Assembly (NCBI GenBank): GCA_021157925.1
Contig: JAGGVR010000071.1
Span: 1 to 38,942 of the forward strand
DNA from: Staphylothermus sp.
GTDB taxonomy: Archaea; Thermoproteota; Thermoprotei_A; Sulfolobales; Desulfurococcaceae
Direction: 5' to 3'
Length of the DNA stretch: 38,942 bases
The notes beneath the pieces are model-generated. The model was not told the origin of the DNA. It worked only from the letters and a program-made list of their open reading frames with translations, and did no database searches. Positions 25,833 through 26,824 of this stretch are shown piece after piece. The translations under genes were made by a program, and so were the position numbers. Within the stretch, counting starts at the first letter, position 1. Each line of letters begins with the position of its first letter.

Positions 25833-26084
25833 ATGATGAGCGAGGGAGTTAATCCCCCCGAACCAATTGTGAAGAAACCAAGGCTCAGAATACATGGAGG
25901 ACTAGACCCTGGATTAAGAATTGGTAGAGGTTTTAGTAGGGGAGAATTGGAAGCTGTAGGTCTTGATTTCAAAACAGCACTAAAACTTGGTCTTAGAATT
26001 GATAAAAGGAGAAGAACAACTCATCAATGGAATATACAAGCACTAAAAGAATATCTAGAAAAAATTGGTTTTAGGAAGAAATAA
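25833..26084 (+). CDS. Ribosomal protein L13e
   Basis: An 83-residue basic protein of the large ribosomal subunit, of the L13e kind found in some crenarchaea and eukaryotes. RGFSRGELEAVGLDFKTALKLGLRIDKRRRTTHQWNIQALKEYL is the conserved core, which carries a helix-turn-helix-like fold. Archaeal versions are much shorter than eukaryotic ones, as here. ATG 25833 lies ten bases after GAGGT; ATG 25836 is also possible. It stands alone, with no ribosomal operon nearby. Confidence 0.9.
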   Translation: MMSEGVNPPEPIVKKPRLRIHGGLDPGLRIGRGFSRGELEAVGLDFKTALKLGLRIDKRRRTTHQWNIQALKEYLEKIGFRKK

Positions 26085-26189
26085 TCCATTATAATTCTCT
26101 TCTCAACTAAAACTGGGTTATATTATTCTATACTATTTCTTCAACAAAATAGTTATTTAGAAGCACTAGTGCCAAGAAACTGTATTACC

Positions 26190-26243
26190 CAGGGGAGTCA
26201 CCCCTGTTCATTCCAACCCCGAGCCACGGGGGTGTCGCAGGGG
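26190..26243. ncRNA. GC-rich structured RNA candidate, strand uncertain
   Basis: In an AT-rich genome of this type, a short GC-rich island between genes usually marks a stable RNA. The arms are CAGGGG (26190), CCCCTG (26201) and CAGGGG (26238), with CCCC/GGGG (26217-26220 and 26228-26231) nested inside. The middle arm can pair with either CAGGGG, giving two exclusive folds; the larger has an internal loop of 10 and 6 bases. A TATA-like TTATATAAA on the minus strand (near 26263) would start transcription at about 26237. It is not a tRNA, and I find no C/D boxes or well-placed ACA box. Confidence 0.5.
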
Positions 26244-26310
26244 CCGGTTCATAAATTATTTATATAATAGTAGGATTTATAAAGCATGTGGGGAGCATAA
26301 AACCAATAGA

Positions 26311-26328
26311 GTGGGAAAAATATCCCAC
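26311..26328. repeat. 6-bp inverted repeat (GTGGGA...TCCCAC)
   Basis: GTGGGA and TCCCAC are separated by AAAATA. The core GTGGG...CCCAC recurs in the palindrome at 35692. It may be an RNA hairpin in a leader or a protein site. Confidence 0.45.
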
Positions 26329-26342
26329 CAGAGATTGTTTTT

Positions 26343-26392: not shown

Positions 26393-26506
26393 TTCTTAAT
26401 AAAAATTTCCATGAAAGAAGAGGGGTTTTCCATTATTCAATCCATAATATATTAAATTAAAACATAGAATTTGATAGACTCAGCGATGATCGGAGAGGAG
26501 ATGTTC

Positions 26507-26824
26507 TTGGAGAAAAGAACAGAAAAGCTAGAGGTTAGTAGCGACAATAATAACTATATAGTAATTGACCTTAAGCCGAGAAGCAGAGTAGTAACTTTTA
26601 AAATTGAAGCAGATACTCTAAAAACTTTTGATAAATATGTTGAATCACTAGGAATCCGTAATAGGAGTATGGTAATTAAGAAGCTCATAACAGCATTTAT
26701 CGAAGGAATGAAAAAATTTGGTAATTTAAAACAAGGTGAATTCGAGCTTGTTTTTGTTCTACGTAGTAAAAATAATAATGATAAAAAGAATATGAAGGAA
26801 ATATCCATTGAGCTCCGTACCTGA
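26507..26824 (+). CDS. Ribbon-helix-helix (CopG-like) DNA-binding regulator
   Basis: A small protein of about 105 residues. The segment SRVVTFKIEADTLKTFDKYVESLGIRNRSMVIKKLITAFIEG has the beta strand plus two helices of the CopG/NikR-like fold, with the turn at GIRNRS. The C-terminal part is basic and is not a recognisable ligand domain. TTG 26507 is preferred because GGAGAGGAG ends six bases upstream; ATG 26501 overlaps that site and ATG 26486 would suit a leaderless mRNA. Such proteins usually control their own gene by binding palindromes, and the region just upstream has two inverted repeats. Confidence 0.75.
   Translation: MEKRTEKLEVSSDNNNYIVIDLKPRSRVVTFKIEADTLKTFDKYVESLGIRNRSMVIKKLITAFIEGMKKFGNLKQGEFELVFVLRSKNNNDKKNMKEISIELRT

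Follow-up and report, generated by a model that had tools for sequence, protein, structure and literature searches.

The 38,942-nucleotide contig of Staphylothermus sp. analyzed here, which we call the window, carries a short GC-rich element between the gene for ribosomal protein L13e and a plus-strand ORF at 26471–26824. Read on the plus strand, the element contains CAGGGG (26190–26195), CCCCTG (26201–26206), and CAGGGG (26238–26243) with a nested CCCC/GGGG stem, exactly as laid out in an initial sequence-only reading of this DNA. When the sequence is folded on its own, nothing about the element stands out: the minus-strand fold has a minimum free energy of −31.9 kcal/mol (z = −1.61), which 17 of 200 shuffles equal or better, and the plus-strand fold does no better than its shuffles (z = +0.37). 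Two comparative findings place it above chance: a DNA search of 41 related genomes identified clear homologs spread over about a dozen genera within its own family, and compensatory changes are confined to one of the two proposed helices. Sequence comparison identifies the element as the gene, on the minus strand, for a small RNA of thermophilic archaea (Table 1). The earlier proposal of a structured minus-strand RNA is thus borne out by the homologs, the covarying stem, and G·U wobbles that pair on that strand only; an RNA from the plus strand was rejected, as it folds no better than shuffles and does not accommodate these wobbles. The suggested search for a known RNA family gave none for the element: an Rfam scan of the window returned no match at the gathering threshold and, at a relaxed threshold (E up to 5), no match over the element.

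Table 1. Features of the guide RNA gene and its convergent neighbor, in window coordinates
Feature	Position	Strand	Basis
Ribosomal protein L13e, convergent neighbor	25833..26084	+	PF01294; same place in 12 genomes
AUACA, ANA/ACA-like box starting 14 nt after the GA stem	26181..26185	-	Sequence; spacing counted against PMC4652768
Minimal conserved core of the small guide RNA, 65 nt	26186..26250	-	Homologs in 26 genomes; covariance model score 83 bits
3' guide CUCCCCUGGG, complement of CCCAGGGGAG at the tRNA-Met intron 3' end	26188..26197	-	Intron pairing and co-variation
GA stem 3' arm ACAGGGGU	26200..26207	-	Same compensatory analysis as 5' arm
Kink-turn bulged strand AAU-GA (consensus GAUGA)	26208..26212	-	UGA invariant; archaeal H/ACA kink-turn orientation
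Apical stem 3' arm CGGGG	26217..26221	-	Alignment; pairing read from sequence
Apical stem 5' arm CCCCG	26227..26231	-	Alignment; pairing read from sequence
Kink-turn 5'-strand GA, second base invariant A	26235..26236	-	Alignment
GA stem 5' arm GCCCCUGC	26237..26244	-	Compensatory changes at 6/8 pairs; pairing in 94% of cells
5' guide AACCG, complement of tRNA-Met exon 2 C41-G42-G43-U44-U45	26245..26249	-	Five pairs, window's genome
TATA box TTTATAAAT of the RNA gene	26275..26283	-	TATA-like element, comparably spaced in most orthologs by visual judgment

With a covariance model based on 14 sequences, full-length copies were recovered from at least 26 genomes, all belonging to one Desulfurococcales family, and a pattern scan of named genomes found one Desulfurococcales MAG and one Thermogladius MAG along with scattered bacterial matches. 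The gene context of the orthologs is conserved in at least 10 genera, with an HTH gene on one side (TrmB-like, PF01978; 22 genomes) and either DUF211 (15 genomes) or the convergent L13e gene (12 genomes) on the other. The TATA box that keeps its position among relatives is TTTATAAAT, from which a transcript start at about 26252–26257 is predicted. The TATA-like box noticed in the sequence-only reading, TATATAA at 26260–26266 on the minus strand, is indeed present, but it is not well placed as a promoter because it would start the transcript inside the stem, and it is probably not the box used. Farther upstream, a palindrome, TGGGA-aaaata-TCCCA (26312–26330), precedes the plus-strand ORF, whose product has no Pfam match and resembles a ribbon-helix-helix regulator. 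Similar palindromes occur near the RNA gene at five other loci (L003, L005, L007, L008, and L009), and the palindrome may be the operator of this putative regulator.

In minus-strand order, the RNA consists of 5' AACCG, GCCCCUGC, GA, the apical stem, AAUGA, ACAGGGGU, GA, and CUCCCCUGGG 3'. Two mutually exclusive hairpins had been proposed around the shared central arm, which would make the element a switch. Comparative folding across relatives, the check proposed at the time, distinguishes sharply between them. The stem built around 26238–26243 and 26201–26206 shows compensatory changes at six of its eight pairs, a number that falls to one at most when the two partners are offset by one to three columns. 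In contrast, the hairpin formed by 26201–26206 with 26190–26195 shows none and is broken in several lineages, although it does belong to the minimum-energy fold predicted for the minus strand of the window sequence; that fold was rejected as the structure since it uses the wrong pairing. Moreover, the minus strand offers no immediately downstream gene for a switch to control, the neighboring L13e gene being convergent. Thus only one of the two alternative helices is conserved, the switch is refuted as a conserved feature, and a two-state RNA is scarcely credible as an explanation of the locus. The third arm is itself almost invariant, yet it does not co-vary with the arms of the stem. As described below, it is held by pairing with a tRNA intron, which accounts for a hairpin that lacks compensatory changes.

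The conserved helix resembles that of archaeal H/ACA guide RNAs. All 14 aligned sequences keep UGA on the 3' strand and an A facing it on the 5' strand without exception, a signature that, by alignment, is the kink-turn of archaeal H/ACA RNAs and a predicted L7Ae site. Its orientation is one we take to be like that of the Pyrococcus Pf9 guide. The GA stem comprises eight pairs and two G·A-type layers, its outermost pair being standard in 9 of 13 distinct sequences; the resulting 10 layers fit the archaeal H/ACA rule, as productive archaeal H/ACA guides have a GA stem of length 10 (PMC4652768). However, no conserved pairing corresponding to a lower stem of 7–9 bp was found outside the GA stem in the alignment, and the ACA box is not conserved across the orthologs: the window species has AUACA at the spacing of an ACA/ANA box, 14–15 nt after the GA stem, and the others keep only an A or an NCA-like end. 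For these two reasons, the RNA is assigned to the H/ACA-like rather than the canonical H/ACA class. A bare kink-turn hairpin that has free guides but lacks a lower stem is the architecture of the Pyrobaculum H/ACA-like sRNAs sR203–sR210 (Bernick et al. 2012, via PMC4652768). Compared by description, those RNAs share with the present one the single kink-turn hairpin, the long free 5' and 3' guides, and a degenerate ANA/NCA box (PMC4652768). They differ in belonging to another archaeal family, whereas the target here is a pre-tRNA intron–exon junction, guide and intron co-vary, and no match is found in Rfam 15.

The target region emerged from one genome whose tRNA-Met(CAU) intron has UGCCCAGGGGAG at its end, with AU and CCGG coming next; pre-tRNA-Met genes were then gathered from other genomes. 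At the corresponding locus of the window's own genome (L165), the intron ends in AUCCCAGGGGAG and exon 2 starts with AUCCGGUU, so that the precursor reads intron CCCAGGGGAG, A38-U39-C40, exon CGGUU. The CUCCCCUGGG:CCCAGGGGAG duplex spans 10 bp, the last ten nucleotides of the intron. In all 23 genomes that have both sequences, the tail of the RNA pairs with the intron of the same genome over 10–13 bp with at most one bulge. Where the guide differs, the intron differs with it: guide CUCUCC is matched by intron GGAGAG in four g7 genomes, UAGG by CCUA in G104, and GGGUC by GACCC in G103, and an extra guide C faces an extra intron G in g5 and g16. Changes on both sides occur at four base pairs between guide and intron, and at none or one once the partners are slid. 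Duplex energies average −24.7 kcal/mol over the 17 distinct guide/intron combinations, versus −21.2 kcal/mol when guides and introns are permuted. None of 100,000 permutations was as good as the observed pairing for these combinations, and 4 of 100,000 were for ten hand-picked representatives. Because such permutation leaves shared ancestry in, the two-sided changes are the stronger evidence. Collectively, the pairing and its co-variation provide good support for the intron–exon junction of unspliced elongator tRNA-Met as the target region. Complementarity by itself would not settle the matter, as 8-mer matches to rRNA also arise by chance.

Ribosomal RNA was also considered as a target. Several matches of 8–12 bp were found, and three candidate sites were followed. 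Conceivable targets of an H/ACA-like guide include 23S GGGGAGUCC, 23S UGCCUAGGGGGG, and 16S GGGGAGU, and in several genera GGACUCCCC matches 23S GGGGAGUCC perfectly over 8–9 bp. An 8-mer match is, however, at chance level, with half of the shuffled tails reaching 8 or more. The rRNA sites also stay constant when the guide changes; conversely, in g7, the 23S UGCCUAGG site changes and the guide does not. In addition, the best site lacks a U in the proper position of the pocket. All three sites were rejected as chance level or not co-varying, and we regard an rRNA guide as most improbable.

On the other side of the hairpin, AACCG completes a bipartite guide. In 12 genomes, representing five genera, the 5' guide forms 5–7 contiguous bp with exon 2; in g6, g7, and g11 it is degenerate. 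In the window's genome, CCCAGGGGAG-A and CGGUU frame an unpaired U39-C40, the U-N geometry of H/ACA pseudouridylation, and no U other than U39 lies between the duplexes. Next to the pocket, the junction is imperfect in most genera, as the 3' guide places the dinucleotide GA across from the lone A38; a clean U-A38 pair is seen in g7 only. Since one of the duplexes lies in the intron, this geometry exists in the precursor only. We consider it likely, and the best explanation of these features, that the RNA is an H/ACA-like guide lacking a lower stem and directs formation of Psi39 in pre-tRNA-Met. The sequence-only reading had mentioned an H/ACA-like guide lacking a standard ACA box as a side remark, and, given the kink-turn, the GA stem, and the bipartite guide, this has become the best-supported class. 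In the mechanism we envisage, the 3' flank would bind the end of the intron and the 5' flank positions 41–45 of exon 2, with A38 between the duplexes and U39-C40 in the pocket. The RNA would be bound by L7Ae at the kink-turn and by Cbf5-Nop10-Gar1, and U39 would be pseudouridylated prior to removal of the intron. Transcription, protein binding, and the pseudouridine at U39 are all things we infer from sequence.

Two other readings accept the same target. In one, the RNA is a guide for another modification, or for another nucleotide of this pre-tRNA region. Its appeal is that the target region is firm while the chemistry is deduced, and that L7Ae serves C/D RNPs too. No C/D boxes were recognized, however, both the orientation of the kink-turn and the length of the GA stem follow the H/ACA pattern, and U39 is the sole U between the duplexes; we hold this reading to be very unlikely. 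In the other, the RNA is an antisense regulator of tRNA-Met splicing that covers the 3' splice junction and blocks or times bulge-helix-bulge cleavage with no modification of a base. Consistent with this, the guide covers the intron 3' end, a presumed part of the splice motif, such that pairing and splicing should exclude each other, and the 3' pairing of 10–13 bp is longer than the 5- to 6-nt 3' guides of canonical H/ACA RNAs (PMC4652768). Yet for a pure antisense RNA, a 10-layer GA stem bearing an H/ACA-type kink-turn would be superfluous, as would a second guide exactly beyond U39-C40, and this possibility, too, seems unlikely to us.

Psi39 is present in the elongator tRNA-Met of Haloferax volcanii and is assigned to a TruA/Pus3 homolog (PMC2584109). 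TruA (PF01416), the stand-alone Psi38–40 synthase, was not detected in 37 of the 40 genomes of the order searched, and it was found in the archaeal controls H. volcanii, Methanocaldococcus jannaschii, and Methanosarcina acetivorans. The archaea that lack this protein may make Psi39 through the guide RNA. The gene for Cbf5 is present and carries an in-frame stop or frame break, consistent with the spliced intron known from cbf5 in crenarchaea (PMC2738675). Genomes without an ortholog usually have a different intron end, other lineages showing CCUGGGAG; the exceptions are the incomplete G001 and G101, G008, and, in part, G012. Searches for the guide in G008, G012, G100, G101, and G001 found none, inspection covering the hits that had a locus. 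In G008, which is 99% complete, the intron motif GGCUCAGGAGAG is kept (L177) and a matching guide RNA was not found. The sole family genome with a TruA-like domain above the cut-off, G005 (L206, G005:C1:770951-771196), differs in the end of its tRNA-Met intron (CGGGAA) and has no clear guide RNA ortholog. Replacement of TruA by the RNA would predict this pattern, although this is a single case.

The same genomes contain further hairpins that fit the covariance model in its stem and kink-turn portion only, which suggests that the RNA belongs to a larger class. Orthologs of a second kink-turn guide RNA, gugaccccggu-GCCCAUGC..GCAUGGGU-cgggucacucccggcc, occur family-wide (L100–L112, L114, L115, and L137), with flanks that are self-complementary. 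Kink-turn hairpins with other tails, GGACUUGUCCCCCGCA among them, are found in the window's genome and a relative (L113, G000:C117; L138, G018:C7; L139, G000:C105). Hits of the covariance model in family f3 (G026, G128, and G131) at first resembled orthologs; their tails do not match the tRNA-Met intron in the two genomes where that gene was found (G026 and G131), and these hits were taken as other guides. The f3 tails (L126, L128, and L134) read GGACCCCC(U)AG. The G026 copy of GGACCCCC can pair over 8 bp with GGGGGUCC, which precedes U-G-ACUG in the 23S rRNA of that genome (23S sequences at L148–L152), and the G128 and G131 tails would pair over 11 bp with the same G026 site. The f3 hits are possibly rRNA guides.

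A precedent for an RNA that guides Psi39 is Sulfolobus Sso1 (Muller et al. 2009, via PMC4652768, PMC7991803, and PMC6313347), in which RNA-guided formation of Psi35 likewise takes place in the anticodon arm of a pre-tRNA (PMC7991803, PMC6313347). Sso1 acts in place of a deficient stand-alone synthase, as the present RNA is predicted to do. Sso1 differs in being a canonical "10/5/9" H/ACA RNA with a lower stem that acts on pre-tRNA-Tyr, and it replaces TruD/Pus7, whereas the RNA described here would replace TruA/Pus3 (COG0101), a protein enzyme that makes Psi38–40 and with which it would share position 39. The box C/D RNA of the tRNA-Trp intron (Cm34/Um39) also provides RNA guidance at position 39 of an intron-containing pre-tRNA (PMC4090602). 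There, however, the modification is 2'-O-methylation and the guide lies inside the intron, whereas here a separate gene reads the intron.

We consider the chances about even that a family of H/ACA-like RNAs without a lower stem took over Psi39 of elongator tRNA-Met from TruA, reading mainly the intron. If so, the modification would depend strictly on the unspliced precursor; as of 2014, no essential modification specific to intron-containing pre-tRNAs had been identified (PMC4090602). Such a guide could explain the source of Psi39 in archaea that have no TruA, and with it, RNA-guided pseudouridylation of tRNA would no longer be confined to Psi35 of tRNA-Tyr. It would also tie the sequence of the intron, through co-evolution, to a trans-acting guide, giving a direct reason for retention of the intron. 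To our knowledge, few functions have been described for the tRNA introns of archaea. A guide RNA from a separate gene and an intron that change together across genera point to a concrete, testable role for the intron of tRNA-Met.
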